A stretch of 64,000 nucleotides of DNA from the NCBI RefSeq assembly GCF_022810765.1, contig NZ_CP094494.1, forward strand, positions 744,001 through 808,000. The letters run 5' to 3'. The position numbers and the translations under genes were made by a program. This DNA comes from Winogradskyella sp. MH6 (GTDB lineage: Bacteria > Bacteroidota > Bacteroidia > Flavobacteriales > Flavobacteriaceae). The notes under the pieces are model-generated. The model was not told the origin of the DNA. It worked only from the letters and a program-made list of their open reading frames with translations, and did no database searches. Positions 6,236-62,427 of the stretch are shown one piece after another; positions within the stretch are counted from its first letter, which is position 1; the number at the start of each line of letters is the position of its first letter.

Positions 6236-7228
6236 TTAATAATTTACAGCTGCTATATTTACAAAGGGCGTACCTCTTTTTATTACTGCAAAACTTCTTG
6301 CCAATATTTTGTTTCTAACATTGTTTAAGGCTATCATTTTGTGTTTACCTTCTTCGAGTTTTCTATGGTAGTATTTCTTAAGTTCTTGGTCTGATTGAAT
6401 AGCTGATACGGCTGCCATGCTCAATAGGGTCTTCATTTTTCTATCACCTATATAATGGCTCTGTTTTCGCCGTCTTATTGAGCTTCCTGAACTGTACTCG
6501 AACGGTGCTATACCACAATAACTTGAAAAGGTTCTCCATGTACTGAATTTAATAAAGTTAGAGGTGTGGTAGAGCAATTGGCAGCTAAGTATAAGACCTA
6601 CGCCTTTTACCGAACGCAGCAACTCATAGTTTTGCCTTAAGGTATCATCGGTCTTTACCAATGTTTTCATCTGGCTTTCTAAGGCTTCTATTTGTTTGTC
6701 TATATGTTTTATAGATCGTTCTAAAATCTTGCAGCAAACATCTGTGGATGGGCTTGACAGCAAGTGCTTGTTTTCTTTTAATGTAGATTTTAACCCACTT
6801 CGATCTTTAACCAATTGGTCTCTTAATGAGAGTATTCTTCCCAGTTCTTGAAAGATCTGTGGTTTCATATGACTTGGCTGAAGCTCTTCTCTATACATCC
6901 ATCCGAACCTGGCTATCATATAAGAGTCTAGCTTGTCTGTCTTCTCTCTTGTAAGACCTGTACTGCGCTTTATGCGCATAGGACTTTCTTCTACATAACA
7001 AACTCCACTTTCTGATAAAAAAACAGATAGCTTTAGTGAGTAATTGCCCGTATTTTCGAAACATAAAAAATAAGAATCACTGCCAACTTGGTGATTTGCC
7101 CATTTAAGGAGTTTTGAATAACCTGCTCTATCATTGGTAAATACAGCATGATGCTCGCTTTGGTATGCTGTAGCATCTATGGTTTTCTTGGATACATCTA
7201 TCCCGATTACATCTCTAACATTTTTCAT
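6236..7228 (-). CDS. IS110-family transposase (DEDD recombinase)
   Basis: 330 aa, typical IS110 length. The N-terminal RuvC-like DEDD domain starts with IGIDVSKKTIDAT (Asp11), followed by CFENTGNYS (Glu) and EKTDKLDSYMIARFG (paired Asp). The C-terminal Transposase_20 domain has SVKGVGLILSCQLL, a helix-hairpin-helix-like stretch, then FSSYCGIAPFEYSSG, where the conserved Ser of the Tnp domain is expected, and ALNNVRNKILARSFAVI. It appears intact. Such enzymes recombine DNA guided, in the IS110 group, by a bridge RNA from the element's noncoding end. Confidence 0.92.
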   Translation of the reverse strand: MKNVRDVIGIDVSKKTIDATAYQSEHHAVFTNDRAGYSKLLKWANHQVGSDSYFLCFENTGNYSLKLSVFLSESGVCYVEESPMRIKRSTGLTREKTDKLDSYMIARFGWMYREELQPSHMKPQIFQELGRILSLRDQLVKDRSGLKSTLKENKHLLSSPSTDVCCKILERSIKHIDKQIEALESQMKTLVKTDDTLRQNYELLRSVKGVGLILSCQLLYHTSNFIKFSTWRTFSSYCGIAPFEYSSGSSIRRRKQSHYIGDRKMKTLLSMAAVSAIQSDQELKKYYHRKLEEGKHKMIALNNVRNKILARSFAVIKRGTPFVNIAAVNY

Positions 7229-7430
7229 ATATTTAAAAAAATTATCATTAATGATGTTTTGTAACTATTTCCTTTAATGAGCCTATAGGGCTAGGTATTC
7301 CAATTAGTTCTTCAAAACATCCTACAAGAGACAGAGAGGACTATTACGTGTAATGGATATTATCTAAAGACCGTTCGAGTTCTCCTCTCTTCTCTTGTTA
7401 AATTTAATGATATCAAAGTAAAGGAGACCG
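7229..7430 (-). ncRNA. Candidate IS110 bridge RNA in the 5' noncoding end
   Basis: About 200 bp upstream of the transposase has no gene. CAAGAGA (7325-7331) plus AGAGAGGA (7333-7340) pair with TCCTCTCT (7383-7390) plus TCTCTTG (7391-7397): 15 base pairs with one bulged C and a 42-nt interior, the look of a bridge RNA binding loop. The interior holds a smaller ATTAC/GTAAT hairpin (7343-7354). ATCATTAATGAT (7244-7255) is a perfect palindrome next to the transposase start. Position and folding fit, but guide pairing was not shown; the stem could belong to an interrupted cassette site instead. Confidence 0.35.
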
Positions 7431-7469
7431 TTACCTGCAAGCTGAAAAAACCAACTCGACCAAATCAAA

Positions 7470-8204
7470 ATGACGAAAAACCTCTACCTGAATTTATTAC
7501 TTTTTATTTCAGTTCTGTTAGTAGGTTTTTACTTTACGTCTGAATTAAATAATTTATGGATTGCTCATCTGTATCATCTAGGAATAATGGCTTTAGCTGG
7601 ACTAATTCTTATCGCATCTGAAAAAGGAAAGCTTCCTAAAAAAGAAAAAGCCGAATTTAAAATCAATAAGATTATTGGAATTATAACTGGAATAATCGGA
7701 CTTATAGCCGTTTGTAATCTTATTCCTGTTCTTGCGAGCAAGATGGCTGGAATCGACATCACTAAGCATCCTATTATCATTGGTTTGAATCTAATGGTTC
7801 CAATTCTAATCTCTATATCAATATTCGAGGAGGTTTTATTTCGTAGAGTTTTAGCACAAAATATTAAAAACACTCTCGGAATTAGAAAAGGAATTTGGAT
7901 TTCGGCTTTTATTTTTGCAATTGCTCATATCTATTCTGATACTGGAATTTTACCGTCTTTCATCGCTGGAATAGTATTAGCCTATATTTACTTTAAAACA
8001 AATAGTATTTATTTGAACATTTTTGCTCATTTGTTTTATAATATCACAACCTACTATCTATTAGCAGTTTTTAGAGATAAAGATAAACTGGAATTAATAT
8101 ATAATTATCAAACCATAGCGTTATTAATTTCATTTGGAATTGTACTTATAGTTGGAATGACAAAAATTTTGAATAAAAAAGCCAGCAGGCAACAACGTAT
8201 ATAA
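7470..8204 (+). CDS. CPBP family intramembrane metalloprotease (CAAX protease-like)
   Basis: 244 aa with about seven or eight hydrophobic helices. The glutamic-protease motifs are present: FEEVLFRRVLAQ (EExxxR), FAIAHIY (FxxxH) and HLFYNITTYY (HxxxN), all predicted within the membrane. Members cleave prenylated proteins in eukaryotes; in bacteria they are linked to bacteriocin immunity or membrane-protein processing. The gene sits alone between an IS110 element and a structured repeat-like flank, and its last codons (SRQQRI) appear to run into that flank, so it may be a mobile cassette. Confidence 0.88.
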   Translation: MTKNLYLNLLLFISVLLVGFYFTSELNNLWIAHLYHLGIMALAGLILIASEKGKLPKKEKAEFKINKIIGIITGIIGLIAVCNLIPVLASKMAGIDITKHPIIIGLNLMVPILISISIFEEVLFRRVLAQNIKNTLGIRKGIWISAFIFAIAHIYSDTGILPSFIAGIVLAYIYFKTNSIYLNIFAHLFYNITTYYLLAVFRDKDKLELIYNYQTIALLISFGIVLIVGMTKILNKKASRQQRI

Positions 8205-8918: not shown

Positions 8919-9941
8919 TTGCAAAAAACGTTTCTATTACTACTACTGCTTTTTTTAAGTTTATGTAGGCTTAATGCTCAAATCGCAGACTTTGACCATA
9001 TAGATTTTAAAAAAGCAGATAGTATTGCCTTATCATTAAAAGGTGAAAGCCTTACAAATCTACCTGAACTTTCTTTTAAACTCACCAATACACTAAACAC
9101 AGATGTAGAAAAGTTTAGAGCCATTTATAAGTGGGTTTGCGACAATATTGCTAACGACTACAATCTTTACCTACAAAACGACCGACAACGACAACGTTTT
9201 AAAGATGATAGCTTAAAGCTTGATACCTGGAGTACAAAATTTAGATCTAAGCTTTTTAGCAGGCTGCTTAAGAAAAAACGAACTATTTGCACAGGTTATG
9301 CCTATTTGGTAAAAACTTTAGCTGATTTTGCCAATCTAAAATGTGAGATAGTACAAGGTTTTGGTCGTGTAAGTACCACAAATATTGAAACTTTAGATTT
9401 ACCCAATCACTCATGGAATGCTGTAAAACTTAAGAGCAAATGGTATTTGTGTGATCCTACTTGGGCCAGTGGCATTCCAAACCCTAAGACCAACAGATTC
9501 TATTTTCATTATAACGATGGCTTCTTTTTAGCAAACCCAAAGCTGTTTGCCATAAATCATTTTCCTGTTGATAAACGTTGGTGGCTTTTAGATGATGATG
9601 AGATTCCTACATTTGATACTTTTTTAAAAGCGCCAGTATTGTATGGTAATGCCTATAAAAATCTAGAGCTGCACAATGCTCCTCAACAAATGCATCATAC
9701 TATAAAGCCTCATCAAAAAGTGGTATTCAAGTATGAATTAAAAAACAACACAAAGCCAAAAAATGTAAAACTTGGTTTTGACAATGGTTTTAGTACCTGG
9801 AAAGACCAACCTACTTCAATTTCTATTAAGGATAAATCTCTAGAGCTGGAACATCAGTTTAACCAAACTGGTTTTTATGATGTGCATCTGTATATCGATG
9901 ATGATTTAATATCAACTTACACTGTTGACGTTAAAAAATAG
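8919..9941 (+). CDS. Secreted transglutaminase-like domain protein
   Basis: 340 aa from a TTG start at 8919; this start gives a complete signal peptide (KTFLLLLLLFLSLCRLNAQ). The transglutaminase/cysteine-protease core has the triad Cys in RTICTGYAYLVKTL, His in PNHSWNAVKL and Asp in WYLCDPTWASG. The C-terminal third is a beta-rich domain, possibly Ig-like. Bacterial members of this kind are usually thought to act as proteases or in cell-surface crosslinking; the substrate is unknown. Follows the CarboxypepD_reg gene closely. Confidence 0.85.
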   Translation: MQKTFLLLLLLFLSLCRLNAQIADFDHIDFKKADSIALSLKGESLTNLPELSFKLTNTLNTDVEKFRAIYKWVCDNIANDYNLYLQNDRQRQRFKDDSLKLDTWSTKFRSKLFSRLLKKKRTICTGYAYLVKTLADFANLKCEIVQGFGRVSTTNIETLDLPNHSWNAVKLKSKWYLCDPTWASGIPNPKTNRFYFHYNDGFFLANPKLFAINHFPVDKRWWLLDDDEIPTFDTFLKAPVLYGNAYKNLELHNAPQQMHHTIKPHQKVVFKYELKNNTKPKNVKLGFDNGFSTWKDQPTSISIKDKSLELEHQFNQTGFYDVHLYIDDDLISTYTVDVKK

Positions 9942-56822: not shown

Positions 56823-56847
56823 TTTTGTACTGAAGGCGGGACTTGAA
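56823..56847. repeat. attL: left copy of the 25-bp direct repeat
   Basis: Identical to 62338-62362. It contains TACTGAAGGCGGGACTTGAA, which is the 3' end (acceptor stem and part of the T-arm) of the tRNA-Leu gene. After base 56847 the sequence departs from the tRNA (AACCATAAAA instead of CCCGCACGG), so this is a tRNA fragment left by site-specific integration. Confidence 0.92.
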
Positions 56848-56981
56848 ACCATAAAATATCATCAACAACTTTAAATCAATAAAAAAGCACATTTACCGAT
56901 AAATACGATATTTTACGGCGCTTTACAAACTGCATCTGAAATCTAAAATAATTTAATGAGTCCTAAATAGAATTAATTTTT

Positions 56982-57048: not shown

Positions 57049-58335
57049 ATGGCAACAATAAACTATTTACTACAAAGCACAAGCAACAACGCACCGATTT
57101 ATTTAAGATTATCGCTAAAGAGAAATGCTGTTTACAAACGCAAAACAGGCTTATCAATCAATCCTAAAGAATGGAACAAAGACAAAAAGCAACCCAAACA
57201 AACGACTGCACAAAACAAAAATCTTACTTTCGATTTAAGAAAACTAAAAGACAAAATCTTTGACAAGGTAAATGAAGCACAAACAAAAGGCGAGATTATT
57301 AATGGAACATGGCTACAATATCAAATCGACTTGCACTTTGAAAGGATAGCAGAAAACAAAAAAAGCGAATATGTTATCGACATAATTCAAAGCCTAATCG
57401 ATAACGCTGATTTACGCAAGAACTCTAAAGGCGGTATTGGTTTATCTAAAAGCAGAAAAGACTCTTACAAGTCATTAAAAAGGATATTTACATCATTTCA
57501 GAAAAACAAATCCTATAAAGTAAAAGAGGTAAACAAAAAACTTGCTGATGATTTTCTCAGATTTATGCTCACTGAGTGTAATTATTCAAAATCCTATGCT
57601 ACAAAAAAAATAGCTGATTTAAAGACCGTTTGCTTTGAGGCTGAGTCAGAAGGAATAAAAGTAAACTCACAATTAAGAAAAATAAAAAGTCTTAAGGTAA
57701 AGAACGATTTTGTAATCTATTTAAGCGAGTTAGAATTGATTAATATAAAAGACTTAGAGTTATCATCAGAAGCACTTCAAAACGCACGTAAATGGCTTTT
57801 ATTAGGCTGTAATATAGGTCAAAGAGGTGGTGATTTACTTAATCTTACCGAAAATAATTTCATTACTAGAAATGGATATGACGTTATTGAACTGAAACAA
57901 CAAAAGACAGGCAAAAACATAACAATTCCAGTATTACCAACAACAAAAGAAATTATTGAAACTGGATTACCTTACAAGATATCAATTCAGAAGTTCAACA
58001 AATACATAAAAGATATTTGCAAACTCGCTGAAATCAATGCTGAGGTCGAAGGAAAACTACTAGACAAAGAAAGCAAAAGAAAAAAGCAAGGCTTTTATCC
58101 TAAACATAAGTTAATTACCAGCCATATTTGTAGACGCTCATTTGCTACAAACAACTATGGAAAATTACCGACTGCATTAATAATGCAAATTACTGGACAC
58201 AGTACAGAAAAAATGTTCCTTAATTACATAGGGAAAGACTCTTTAGACTTTGCTCAACAAATTGCAGATTATTATGCTTTACAGTCCATAAAAGATAAAA
58301 AAGAACCTCAACTAAAGATTGTAAAAAATCTTTAA
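57049..58335 (+). CDS. int: Tyrosine site-specific integrase
   Basis: 428 aa, Bacteroidota type. N-terminal arm-binding domain (residues 1-85, RNAVYKRKTGLSINPKEWNK), SAM-like core-binding domain (about 105-215) and catalytic domain with Arg259 in CNIGQRGGDLLNL, His359 and Arg362 in ITSHICRRSFATNNYG, His384 in QITGHSTEKMF and Tyr393 in LNYIG. All catalytic residues are present. It lies just inside attL and would integrate the element at the 3' end of tRNA-Leu. Confidence 0.95.
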   Translation: MATINYLLQSTSNNAPIYLRLSLKRNAVYKRKTGLSINPKEWNKDKKQPKQTTAQNKNLTFDLRKLKDKIFDKVNEAQTKGEIINGTWLQYQIDLHFERIAENKKSEYVIDIIQSLIDNADLRKNSKGGIGLSKSRKDSYKSLKRIFTSFQKNKSYKVKEVNKKLADDFLRFMLTECNYSKSYATKKIADLKTVCFEAESEGIKVNSQLRKIKSLKVKNDFVIYLSELELINIKDLELSSEALQNARKWLLLGCNIGQRGGDLLNLTENNFITRNGYDVIELKQQKTGKNITIPVLPTTKEIIETGLPYKISIQKFNKYIKDICKLAEINAEVEGKLLDKESKRKKQGFYPKHKLITSHICRRSFATNNYGKLPTALIMQITGHSTEKMFLNYIGKDSLDFAQQIADYYALQSIKDKKEPQLKIVKNL

Positions 58336-58791: not shown

Positions 58792-59076
58792 ATGAGTACA
58801 AAAAGTATTCAGTTTGTTCAGGTAACACCAGAACAACTACAAGAAGCCATAATTGATGGTGTGAAAATTCAATTAAACGACCTTAAGCAACATTTTAAAC
58901 CAAAAGAGCCTACTGAGTATCTTACAAGAGCTGAAGTCTCAGAAATGCTTAAAATTGATGTTAGTTCTGTTTACAATTGGACTAAACGAGGCATTCTAAT
59001 ACCTTACCAAATATCAGGTCGCATTTATTTCAAACGTGCTGATATTGAAAACGCAATCGTTAAACTTAAAAATTAA
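58792..59076 (+). CDS. Excisionase-like helix-turn-helix protein
   Basis: 94 aa. The C-terminal half is a MerR-like/HTH_17 winged helix: YLTRAEVSEMLKIDVSSVYN, then GILIPYQISGRIYFKRADIE. Short proteins of this type on integrative elements act as recombination directionality factors or regulators. Position just downstream of the integrase supports that. An N-terminal helix (TPEQLQEAIIDGVKIQLND) may dimerise. Confidence 0.85.
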   Translation: MSTKSIQFVQVTPEQLQEAIIDGVKIQLNDLKQHFKPKEPTEYLTRAEVSEMLKIDVSSVYNWTKRGILIPYQISGRIYFKRADIENAIVKLKN

Positions 59077-59081
59077 AAGAT

Positions 59082-59327
59082 ATGAAGACTCAATACAAGA
59101 AGGTGTTCATCTCTTTTTTTGAAGCACCTAAATCAAGATTAATGGCTTCTTTCGGCACAGAAGTTATGATACAAAATGTTTGTAGGTATGTTGATATGAT
59201 GAGAGACAATAATCAAATAGTAGTTGTAAAACTAGACTATTGCGCAATCACAAATCAACTCGTTGAATACCTAACAACAAATCCCAAATTTTTTCCACCT
59301 AAAAGCCAATTAGATTTATTTGAATAG
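59082..59327 (+). CDS. Hypothetical small element protein
   Basis: 81 aa, starting 5 bp after the HTH gene stop and ending 11 bp before the Rep-like gene, so part of the same transcript. Sequence MKTQYKKVFISFFEAPKSRL continues into an alpha/beta-like stretch and ends in KSQLDLFE, which resembles a beta-clamp-binding motif (QLDLF). It has no membrane helix. The clamp motif would suit a role in replication, but this is inference. Confidence 0.65.
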   Translation: MKTQYKKVFISFFEAPKSRLMASFGTEVMIQNVCRYVDMMRDNNQIVVVKLDYCAITNQLVEYLTTNPKFFPPKSQLDLFE

Positions 59328-59338
59328 CCTTTTGAGCT

Positions 59339-60196
59339 ATGTTTGATGGCTTTAAATTACAATTAGTCAATTCTAATCATATTTTGAATTTTGATGGATT
59401 TGATAAGACGAATACATTTTGTCATGAACTCGGTCACATTCACAAAACCGTTTATCATTACAAGTGCTTATCATTCCATCATTTTTCAGAACATGACAAG
59501 TTATATCTTTATGGAAGTTTTCATAAATTTCACAATAATGGACAACACAATTACAATCAGTTCAGTATTAACAATTTTATTAGTTCAGTCTCAATCTTCT
59601 TAGATATTTTTTCAATAGAAGCTAAAAACTGTATTATCAAAAATATTGAGTACGGTGTAAACATAGAAACAAAGCATAATATCAACATCTTACTTAACAA
59701 CCTTTTACTTCACAAAAACCAAGCACCATTAAAACCGAGATTTTCTGACTTTAGGTTTGAACATCAACGTTATCACTTAAAAGTTTATAATAAATCAGAA
59801 CAGTATTTAAATCTAGTCAACAATAAAAACATTCTAAGATTTGAAATGCGCTTTGAAAGAATGATTAAACTAAATCAAAAAGGAATAAATACCCTCGCAG
59901 ACTTATTATCAAATGAGCACTTAACTTTTTTTAACAACGAATTAGTTGAGATGTGGAATAACATTTTAATGTTCGATTATACCATTAAAGTTGACAGTCT
60001 AAACACAATCCAAAGAAACAAACTAAAAGACTTTTGCAACCCTTCATACTGGCAGAACCTAAAGCCAAACAGAAGAGACAGACAAAAAAAGTACTTAAAG
60101 AATATAATTTTAAAGTATTCTGATAAAATCCAAAGTGAAATAAGTATTCAAATAATAGAAACCTTAAAACAGAACTGTGTAATAATTAACGATTAA
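59339..60196 (+). CDS. Replication-initiator-like protein (phage/plasmid gene II/X or RstA type)
   Basis: 285 aa. GSFHKFHNNGQHNYNQF near residue 54 resembles the G-x-x-KF..G.N core of filamentous-phage and plasmid replication initiators (Phage_CRI/RstA), and YHLKVYNKSEQYLNL followed by NILRFEMRFERM fits their YxK and LRxExR motifs, which contain the nicking Tyr and a conserved Glu/Arg. The C-terminus is helical. If correct, the element replicates as a rolling circle after excision. Homology is judged by eye only. Confidence 0.6.
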   Translation: MFDGFKLQLVNSNHILNFDGFDKTNTFCHELGHIHKTVYHYKCLSFHHFSEHDKLYLYGSFHKFHNNGQHNYNQFSINNFISSVSIFLDIFSIEAKNCIIKNIEYGVNIETKHNINILLNNLLLHKNQAPLKPRFSDFRFEHQRYHLKVYNKSEQYLNLVNNKNILRFEMRFERMIKLNQKGINTLADLLSNEHLTFFNNELVEMWNNILMFDYTIKVDSLNTIQRNKLKDFCNPSYWQNLKPNRRDRQKKYLKNIILKYSDKIQSEISIQIIETLKQNCVIIND

Positions 60197-60548: not shown

Positions 60549-60566
60549 TATAACCTATAAGTTATA
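60549..60566. promoter_or_regulatory. Probable antitoxin operator
   Basis: TATAAC (60549-60554) and GTTATA (60561-60566) are 6-bp inverted arms with a 6-nt spacer, between the -7 box and the start codon. XRE antitoxins usually repress their own operon at such sites. Confidence 0.45.
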
Positions 60567-60572
60567 TTTATA

Positions 60573-60950
60573 TTGAAAAAACAGGCGGTCATATTAAGAA
60601 AAGGTACAAAATTTGATATTTGTTGTGATATCGACCTCCTAGATGAGTTTATGCAATATGTAATGCAAGACGCAAGTCACTTTAAAGAAATGAAGTTAAT
60701 CTTCAGTCAAATACTTGAGGGGCTAAAGTCTAAAAAATATAGCGATGAGCCATTCGGCACTAAGGCGATGAAGCCATTCTTAAATAGAGAAAATGATAGA
60801 ATTATTTGTAATGTAAAAAACAGAAAACGACGAAAGAAATGCATTATTATGTCCGAATTTTATTATAGTAAAAAAACAAACGGTATTGACAAACAGTTAA
60901 GCAATAGATATAAAATAGTTTCAACTTATGATTATGAAATCATTGAATAA
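60573..60950 (+). CDS. RelE/HigB-like toxin, candidate
   Basis: 125 aa from a TTG start at 60573. Residues about 42-105 follow the RelE/HigB/Gp49 pattern: IFSQILEGLKSK, then FLNRENDRIICNVKNRKR, and IIMSEFYYSKKTN, with a basic RKRRKKC stretch that would suit ribosome or RNA binding. Members cut mRNA on the ribosome. It overlaps the following XRE gene by 23 bp, the toxin-first order of HigBA. A low-probability start further in is possible. Homology judged by eye. Confidence 0.65.
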   Translation: MKKQAVILRKGTKFDICCDIDLLDEFMQYVMQDASHFKEMKLIFSQILEGLKSKKYSDEPFGTKAMKPFLNRENDRIICNVKNRKRRKKCIIMSEFYYSKKTNGIDKQLSNRYKIVSTYDYEIIE

Positions 60951-61482
60951 ATTCAAAAACATTCTTACAAACCCGAATTTCGATATTGAACATGAAACTC
61001 AAATGGTACAATCACGTATTTTAAGTTCCATACTCGAGATAATGGATGAAAAAGAATATAATCAATCAGATTTAGAAAGACTTACAGGTTTAAGTCAACC
61101 TTTTTTAAGTAGTATATTTAACAATAAAAAGAAATTGAGCATGAGGCATATTGCCTTAATTCAAGAAGCTCTAGGTGTTATACTACAACCACCTACAGCT
61201 TTATCTAAAGAAGCTCACAACAATAAGTTTTATAATGAAAATGACGAACCTCTTGAAACTGCAAAATTTATTTGGGTTTCAGAAAATTTTAAAGATAAAA
61301 ATCCATTGAAAAATAGAGTTTATTCTAGTTGTGCGTATAGCTTAGTCGTAAACGAATGCCAGTCCTCATATAAAGTCTCTTCAAAAAACACGATAACTGG
61401 TGTAATACGAAAAAGTACGAAACAACGCATCATTGAAGGAAAAATCATTAAGTCTGGAAAAGAAATAAAAACTTACGGTTAA
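60928..61482 (+). CDS. XRE-family antitoxin with long C-terminal extension (HigA-like)
   Basis: 184 aa (the ATG at 60934 is an alternative). Helix-turn-helix at residues about 28-88: ILSSILEIMDEKEYNQSDLE, LTGLSQPFLSSIFNNKKKLS, IALIQEALGVIL. After it come about 95 further residues (FIWVSENF, CAYSLVVNEC) beyond a minimal HigA. TAC antitoxins carry a C-terminal chaperone-addiction region, and this extension could be one. It follows the toxin gene and precedes the SecB-like gene. Confidence 0.75.
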   Translation: MIMKSLNKFKNILTNPNFDIEHETQMVQSRILSSILEIMDEKEYNQSDLERLTGLSQPFLSSIFNNKKKLSMRHIALIQEALGVILQPPTALSKEAHNNKFYNENDEPLETAKFIWVSENFKDKNPLKNRVYSSCAYSLVVNECQSSYKVSSKNTITGVIRKSTKQRIIEGKIIKSGKEIKTYG

Positions 61483-61498
61483 ATAACAAAAAACTGAG

Positions 61499-61972
61499 AT
61501 GCAAAAGACAAACTTTTTCTCTGATATAGAAATTTTAGAACAAAGAGTATTAGAAGCTCATTATTCGGATAGAGTTAATAATGAAACTAACGTAAATTTG
61601 TTAGACTCGGAATTATTCGAAATTAATATTGAATACGACCTTTATATTAATAATCAAGATGATAGGGAACACTACATACTTATAGCGCTTGAAATTAATG
61701 AAAAAAACCAAAATGATGAGGACGCATTAAGTTTAAACATTCTTACTCAAGGTCATTATAAAATAAAACAAGAGGTTAAAAAAAAGGAATATGACTCATT
61801 ATATCATTTCGGCAGTTTATCACTAGGCATTAATCATCTGAGACTAGCATTTTTTAATCTCACTTCATTAACATTGAATACAGGACAATCCCTTCCTTTA
61901 GTTAACATGAGTGCGCTTCATGAAGCCTATGACAAAAAAATAAAAAAGCTTCGAGCAAAAGAAAAAAAATAA
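61499..61972 (+). CDS. SecB-like chaperone of a TAC module, candidate
   Basis: 157 aa. Two antiparallel strands (FEINIEYDLYI; HYILIALEINEKN) and a loop lead to INHLRLAFFNLTSLTLNTGQ and SLPLVNMSALHEAY. The latter align well with SecB's PYARECIASMVSRG and QLNLAPVNFDALF segments, and the overall length fits SecB. In TAC systems a SecB-like protein guards the antitoxin. The gene starts 16 bp after the XRE gene. The preserved order toxin-antitoxin-SecB is the main support. Confidence 0.7.
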   Translation: MQKTNFFSDIEILEQRVLEAHYSDRVNNETNVNLLDSELFEINIEYDLYINNQDDREHYILIALEINEKNQNDEDALSLNILTQGHYKIKQEVKKKEYDSLYHFGSLSLGINHLRLAFFNLTSLTLNTGQSLPLVNMSALHEAYDKKIKKLRAKEKK

Positions 61973-61974
61973 GA

Positions 61975-62202
61975 TTGACTCTATACGAATTTAACCTTCT
62001 AACTAGAGACCAGCAATTAAAACAATTATGGGATTTAGGCACTTACATTGACAACTTTGTTAGTGACTCAGAACGTTGTAATCTTTATGCAATAGGACGT
62101 TTTTTTGTTGAGGTAAGCTACAATCCTAAAACAAATAAAATCGACACAATCAAAAGCTTTAAAACCGGATATCTTTTAGACAAATATTCAAGCCTTAAAT
62201 AG
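61975..62202 (+). CDS. Small conserved protein, fourth gene of the TAC-like operon
   Basis: 75 aa from a TTG start at 61975, two bases after the SecB-like gene's stop. MTLYEFNLLTRDQQLKQLWD, then IDNFVSDSERCNLYAIGRFF and a short beta-like stretch (VEVSYNPKTNKIDTI). I recall similar short proteins in Bacteroidota but no function. Close spacing implies it is translated with the module, perhaps as an accessory. Confidence 0.6.
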   Translation: MTLYEFNLLTRDQQLKQLWDLGTYIDNFVSDSERCNLYAIGRFFVEVSYNPKTNKIDTIKSFKTGYLLDKYSSLK

Positions 62203-62305: not shown

Positions 62306-62339
62306 AAAGCCTTGAAAATCAAATGATTAACAAGGCTTT
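62306..62339. terminator. Terminator at the right end of the element
   Basis: AAAGCCTTG (62306-62314) pairs with CAAGGCTTT (62331-62339) with a 16-nt loop. T-runs lie beyond the stem on both strands, so it may end both the TAC transcript and tRNA read-through. Confidence 0.75.
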
Positions 62340-62362
62340 TTGTACTGAAGGCGGGACTTGAA
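62338..62362. repeat. attR: right copy of the 25-bp direct repeat
   Basis: Identical to 56823-56847. It overlaps the 3' end of the complete tRNA-Leu gene. The tRNA is rebuilt here, so integration does not destroy it. Confidence 0.92.
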
Positions 62363-62427
62363 CCCGCACGGCCATAATGGCCATTGGATTTTAAGTCCAA
62401 CGTGTCTACCAATTCCACCACTTCAGC
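62343..62427 (-). tRNA. tRNA-Leu (anticodon UAA)
   Basis: 85 nt. Acceptor arms GCTGAAG and CTTCAGT (one G-U at the end), discriminator A, T-loop GTTCAAG, long variable arm typical of Leu (pairing around GGCCATTATGGCC), anticodon loop CTTAAAA with anticodon TAA at 62391-62393. Insertion site of the integrative element. Confidence 0.95.

Follow-up and report, generated by a model that had tools for sequence, protein, structure and literature searches.

A probable toxin-antitoxin-chaperone module as cargo of a tRNA-Leu-integrated element in Winogradskyella sp. MH6

Gene organization of the locus

We analysed a stretch of 64,000 nucleotides (the window; contig NZ_CP094494.1, positions 744,001 to 808,000) from the one-contig, 3.5-Mb genome of Winogradskyella sp. 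MH6 (class Bacteroidia, family Flavobacteriaceae), in which an initial annotation had proposed a toxin-antitoxin-chaperone (TAC) module as cargo of an integrative element. Three plus-strand genes, overlapping or tightly spaced, run from 60573 to 61972. They encode a putative toxin of 125 amino acids (aa) with a TTG start codon, modelled as HigB/RelE-like (60573-60950), a helix-turn-helix (HTH) antitoxin of 182 aa with a 95-residue C-terminal extension (60934-61482; 184 aa from an alternative ATG at 60928), and a SecB-like chaperone of 157 aa (61499-61972). An open reading frame (ORF) for 75 aa follows on the same strand, again with a TTG start (61975-62202). The ORF list places all four where they had been annotated, with the toxin first and a gap of 16 bp between antitoxin and SecB-like gene; the reported 23-bp overlap of toxin and antitoxin holds for the start at 60928 and becomes 17 bp if the antitoxin starts at the ATG at 60934.

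The same three genes recur in this order, preceded by the same palindrome, at three further loci (L001, L002 and L003), and 22 aligned toxin homologues are 54-72% identical to the window toxin, so the gene set is more than a chance grouping. At a more distant locus, L091, adjacent toxin, antitoxin and SecB-like genes are likewise kept as a set. Toxin relatives with names come from Winogradskyella, Algibacter and Flavobacterium. Together with SusC/SusD-like ORFs recognised by eye, these names point to Bacteroidota and probably to Flavobacteriaceae.

The toxin

The structure model of the toxin has a BECR/RelE-like fold resembling HigB and RelE, in line with the motif-based assignment in the initial annotation, and the gene has the same neighbours at the other loci. 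Residues K67, R76 and K100 are invariant; compared by spacing, not by superposition, with R68, R77 and K95 of HigB-TAC, the first interval is equal. We regard a RelE/HigB-like fold and its candidate catalytic residues as moderately supported. Several observations weigh against this assignment: the confidence of the model is moderate (pLDDT 76), its Foldseek matches are weak (best E 0.10, none at or below 0.001), the interval between R76 and K100 is 24 residues compared with 18 in HigB-TAC, and none of 23 toxin homologues matches a Pfam toxin family at E≤10. No PADLOC family matches the window toxin at the same threshold, and a sequence search of solved structures returned just two weak, unrelated matches. 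Judged by its sequence, the toxin is a branch that the profile libraries consulted miss. Because it falls in no Pfam toxin family, the name HigBA-SecB given to the locus stands as a likeness of fold and architecture, not as a family assignment by sequence.

The database record of the toxin from this genome (P0013) has 86 aa and starts at Met 40, and ten more homologue records have 86-99 aa. The TTG start supported by the homologues is apparently passed over in automatic annotation.

Antitoxin extension and candidate operator

The HTH domain of the antitoxin is matched by PF13443 (E 6.9e-7) and PF01381 (E 9.3e-7) over residues 33-82. Its conserved part closes with the motif QPP, beyond which the window protein continues for 95 residues, as had been estimated; at the four close loci (the window and L001-L003) this variable extension measures 69-95 residues. 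Among these loci the toxins are 58-74% and the chaperones 25-54% identical, and within the antitoxin the N-terminal part (52-62%) is better conserved than the extension (23-45%). On sequence, this fits a fixed warhead combined with a fast-changing extension and chaperone, four loci being few.

The inverted repeat noted earlier near the promoter is present without mismatch as TATAACCTATAAGTTATA at 60549-60566, in a candidate palindromic operator (60549-60569, plus strand) that lies three bases ahead of the toxin start codon. Such repeats with up to two mismatches are expected by chance at a mean of 0.04 per window, and 4 of 100 shuffles contained one. The palindrome TATAACYTATNRGTTATATTT is shared by the four close loci (60549-60573 in the window, 7977-8001 in both L001 and L002, 7975-7998 in L003), and in each its end lies 2-3 bases 5' of the toxin start codon, which is TTG at three of them and ATG at L003. 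A conventional leader would not fit into this space, and a leaderless toxin mRNA is therefore possible. As a hairpin the site is not more stable than shuffled sequence (z -0.65), for which reason we read it as a candidate protein-binding site.

The SecB-like chaperone

The initial annotation had staked its reading on the SecB identity of the 157-aa protein, and a SecB fold was indeed found for it. The PADLOC profile PD-T4-9_C (PDLC04072) matches all four aligned chaperones (window E 3.3e-4, best 2.6e-9), and PF02556 is detected at E≤1 in 21 of 31 members of the chaperone family (best 1.3e-5). Against the assignment, PF02556 gives no match to the window chaperone at E≤10. A single-sequence search recovered the chaperone itself alone among 59 candidates, and sequence searches of solved structures yielded nothing, or repeat artefacts and ZapA.

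Comparison with described TAC systems

The arrangement resembles HigBA1-SecB(TA) of Mycobacterium tuberculosis (Rv1955-Rv1956-Rv1957), a TAC of another phylum. The two toxins share 6-7% identity over the structural alignment and no common Pfam family, and the window TAC, unlike that of M. tuberculosis, lies on an element integrated at a tRNA gene. In E. coli C496, HigBAC, set beside the window TAC by its description, likewise combines a HigB-type toxin, an antitoxin and the SecB-like HigC, and the lambda tail protein is described as its activator (PMC11980606). CmdTAC of E. coli (PD-T4-9) has a SecB-like CmdC, whose PADLOC profile is the one that matches the window chaperone. CmdT is described as an ADP-ribosyltransferase (PMC11618068), whereas the window toxin has no PADLOC match and models as HigB/RelE. 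For CmdTAC, newly made capsid protein is reported to pull the chaperone off, whereupon the antitoxin is degraded (PMC11618068); the lambda tail protein is reported to act in this way on HigBAC (PMC11980606). The portions of PMC4361572, PMC9519451, PMC11980606, PMC12715929 and PMC12619734 consulted describe no HigB-type TAC in Flavobacteriaceae. A 2014 survey, as excerpted, found SecB outside the alpha-, beta- and gamma-proteobacteria to be mostly toxin-antitoxin (TA) associated (44 of 70; PMC4257090).

The carrier element and its relatives

The TAC lies between two 28-bp att-like direct repeats (56823-56850 and 62338-62365, identical at 27 of 28 positions), of which the right one is in the 3' end of a tRNA-Leu (taa) gene on the minus strand (62342-62427), the presumed integration site. 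The repeats of this tRNA end bound 5.5 kb. From left to right on the plus strand they enclose a tyrosine integrase (57049-58335; Arm-DNA-bind_5 6e-8, Phage_int_SAM_5 1e-7, Phage_integrase 6.5e-6, PHROG 216 integrase 6.1e-19), an excisionase-like HTH_17 protein (58792-59076; PF12728 6.9e-12, PHROG 66 excisionase/regulator 1.4e-9), an 81-aa ORF without family match (59082-59327) and a 285-aa Rep-like protein (59339-60196), followed by the TAC and the 75-aa ORF. The integrase, together with the direct repeats at the tRNA gene, supports the proposed assignment of the module as cargo of a 5.5-kb, putatively site-specific integrative element in tRNA-Leu.

The Rep-like protein has no family match, and relatives occur in 29 of 299 genomes of the family, its own included; none was found on phage or plasmid records or in viral contigs. 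A family scan of eight relatives gave five chance-level families with one member each. The likeness to rolling-circle initiators, which we presume, could not be confirmed. Sixteen stretches (L044-L059) were fetched around chosen matches; 14 contain an integrase, an HTH_17 protein and a tRNA gene are present in 11 each, and four (L046, L050, L054 and L057) have the tRNA-Leu(taa)/tRNA-Gly pair of the window. In eight of the nine stretches with a tRNA downstream of Rep, an exact 15-25-bp repeat of the tRNA end lies upstream of the integrase, a count made without shuffle control; L054, where no integrase was found, has no such repeat, and L048 and L059, with the tRNA elsewhere, fell outside the test. 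The repeats are 5.6-8.6 kb apart from start to start, compared with 5.5 kb in the window.

Ten ORFs were picked by eye from seven of the 16 stretches for a PADLOC scan of the cargo, and nine were matched, in six of the seven stretches; the ORF of L057 had no match. In three repeat-bearing sister elements the cargo slot is occupied by defence genes, known or candidate, namely Tmn (L049), PDC-S49 and PDC-S02 (L050) and a type IIG restriction gene (L052). Further matches, where the right end was not placed, are a type I methylase (L051), two Druantia ORFs (L053) and a type III methylase with AbiD (L059). No name for this integrase-HTH_17-Rep family came up in the literature search aimed at it.

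The 75-aa gene had been counted as part of the module, an assignment we reject: its family occurs in 33 of 299 genomes of the family (own included), whereas the toxin is limited to 1 of 397, and it does not stand beside the TACs of L001-L003, a 29% piece in L003 (E 1.0) being discounted. Around seven copies, with about 0.6-1.5 kb on each side, no match to toxin, antitoxin or chaperone was found. Rep relatives are found no more than about 3 kb from two of the copies (G245 and G286). One copy, in L060, adjoins a CmdTAC-like locus (6297-7769) close to a tRNA-Leu(taa)/tRNA-Gly pair as in the window (tRNA-Leu at 8965-9049), and the first 6 kb of L060 hold no repeat of at least 13 bases. The 75-aa gene is best read as a passenger within the element.

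Distribution and two-gene relatives

Profile matches to the toxin occur in 4 of 198 genomes of the class, that of the window included; the others are L090, L091 and L092. The SecB-like third gene of L091 scores 24.7 bits, compared with at most 6.3 among 1000 shuffles (821 reported), and its profile comparison shows moderate agreement only (probability 63%, E 7e-5). L090 and L092 carry homologous toxins (E 6.9e-19 and 2e-16) and antitoxins (E 2.7e-15 and 6.2e-19), but their antitoxin extensions are shorter, no SecB-like gene was found in the 3.4 kb of DNA covered and the palindrome was not found at either. These pairs are followed by an ORF that looks aminotransferase-like by eye, and a sequence search of solved structures with the L090 toxin found nothing.

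Some aspects of the distribution weigh against the explanation proposed below. The toxin is rare, its profile matching 1 of 397 genomes of the family, the window's own; tblastn against 50,697 phage and 72,556 plasmid records gave nothing, and 70 pattern stretches in viral contigs contained no toxin relative. At L001-L003 neither a tRNA nor any protein of the window element was found except toxin, antitoxin and chaperone, which shows that the TAC can occur apart from this element.

Proposed mechanism and alternatives

Building on what was observed (the genes and their order, the SecB fold of the chaperone, the HTH domain with extension, the conserved palindrome and the att-like repeats), we consider it probable that the TAC is element cargo in which engagement of the chaperone leads to loss of the antitoxin, and the toxin then stops growth and phage. 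The HTH antitoxin would bind the toxin and repress the operon at the palindrome, and the long extension would make the antitoxin unstable unless held by the SecB-like chaperone. A competitor that occupies the chaperone would cause the antitoxin to be lost, and the freed RelE/HigB-like toxin could cut translated mRNA, bringing growth and phage production to a halt. By analogy with CmdTAC and HigBAC, a freshly synthesised structural protein of a phage is the likeliest competitor. That some sister elements carry defence genes strengthens, circumstantially, the putative anti-phage activity, which the initial annotation, right on architecture and location, had rightly marked as inference.

A genuine TAC might also serve retention of the element, by addiction or stabilization, rather than phage arrest. 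The module sits on an integrative element, and cells losing it would presumably first lose antitoxin and chaperone. However, the three sister elements with placed ends hold defence genes, not TA genes, in the same slot, L001-L003 have the TAC without the rest of the element, and TACs tested in E. coli are reported to restrict phages (PMC9519451, PMC11618068). We regard retention as unlikely, if the strongest of the alternatives. Slightly less credit is given to a first protein that has the BECR fold and another target (for example gyrase, as a ParE-like toxin) or is no toxin: ParE chains are among the structural matches, no sequence family was assigned and the Foldseek E-values are weak, set against the three invariant residues and their partly matching spacing. 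It is very improbable that an export chaperone stands by chance behind a plain TA pair without serving the antitoxin, a case to which the two-gene relatives and the reported ability of TAC chaperones to stand in for SecB in E. coli (PMC5105189) lend something, since gene order does not vary among the four close loci and L091, the two chaperone-less antitoxins have shorter extensions, and PF02556 exceeds its cut-off in just 8 of 397 genomes of the family, so that export there is not generally reliant on a recognisable SecB.

The TAC arrangement itself is known; new are a TAC with a toxin that profile libraries do not recognise, its two-gene relatives, and a family of elements bearing defence genes. 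More tentatively, and with somewhat less than even confidence, we suggest that a toxin family forming a BECR-fold branch outside the Pfam toxin families has been caught both as plain TA (L090 and L092) and as chaperone-addicted TAC (the window, L001-L003 and L091). Extension and chaperone would form a swappable sensor that diversifies against phage proteins while the warhead stays fixed. The integrase-HTH-Rep elements of 5.5-8.6 kb in tRNA genes would be a dedicated vehicle shuttling defence cargo through the family. A 2014 review, in the part consulted, calls the origin of TA addiction to SecB chaperones an important mechanistic issue (PMC4257090). With one toxin-antitoxin family found with and without chaperone, the acquisition step can be compared directly, and this branch may show how such switches gained their chaperone. 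The locus further contributes a toxin family missed by profile libraries, and the cargo slot of the small elements is a place to look for more defence genes.

SecB-like genes elsewhere in the family

PF02556 is detected at E≤0.01 in 16 of the 397 genomes, including the eight above the cut-off; the genome of the window is not among them. Eleven of these loci were read by eye: eight have an ADP-ribosyltransferase-like ORF and are CmdTAC-like, two have a HEPN-like and one a HicB-like ORF. Separately, a second match in G418, with five internal stops, was dropped as chance. At L007 (1483-2828) and L009 (652-1830), also by eye, the SecB gene follows a HEPN-like ORF and an antitoxin-like ORF ending in LAA; these loci may be TACs that use a different type of toxin. 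At L008, L011 and L016 the putative CmdA-like antitoxins have LAA as their last residues, and the end at L010 is EAA. The LAA ends of the CmdA-like proteins and of the antitoxin-like ORFs of L007 and L009 presumably resemble a degradation tag of the ssrA kind. At L015 (544-1550), where the PF02556 match is below the cut-off and the present chaperone profile gives no match to the SecB-like ORF, this ORF is directly preceded by a HicB-like ORF.
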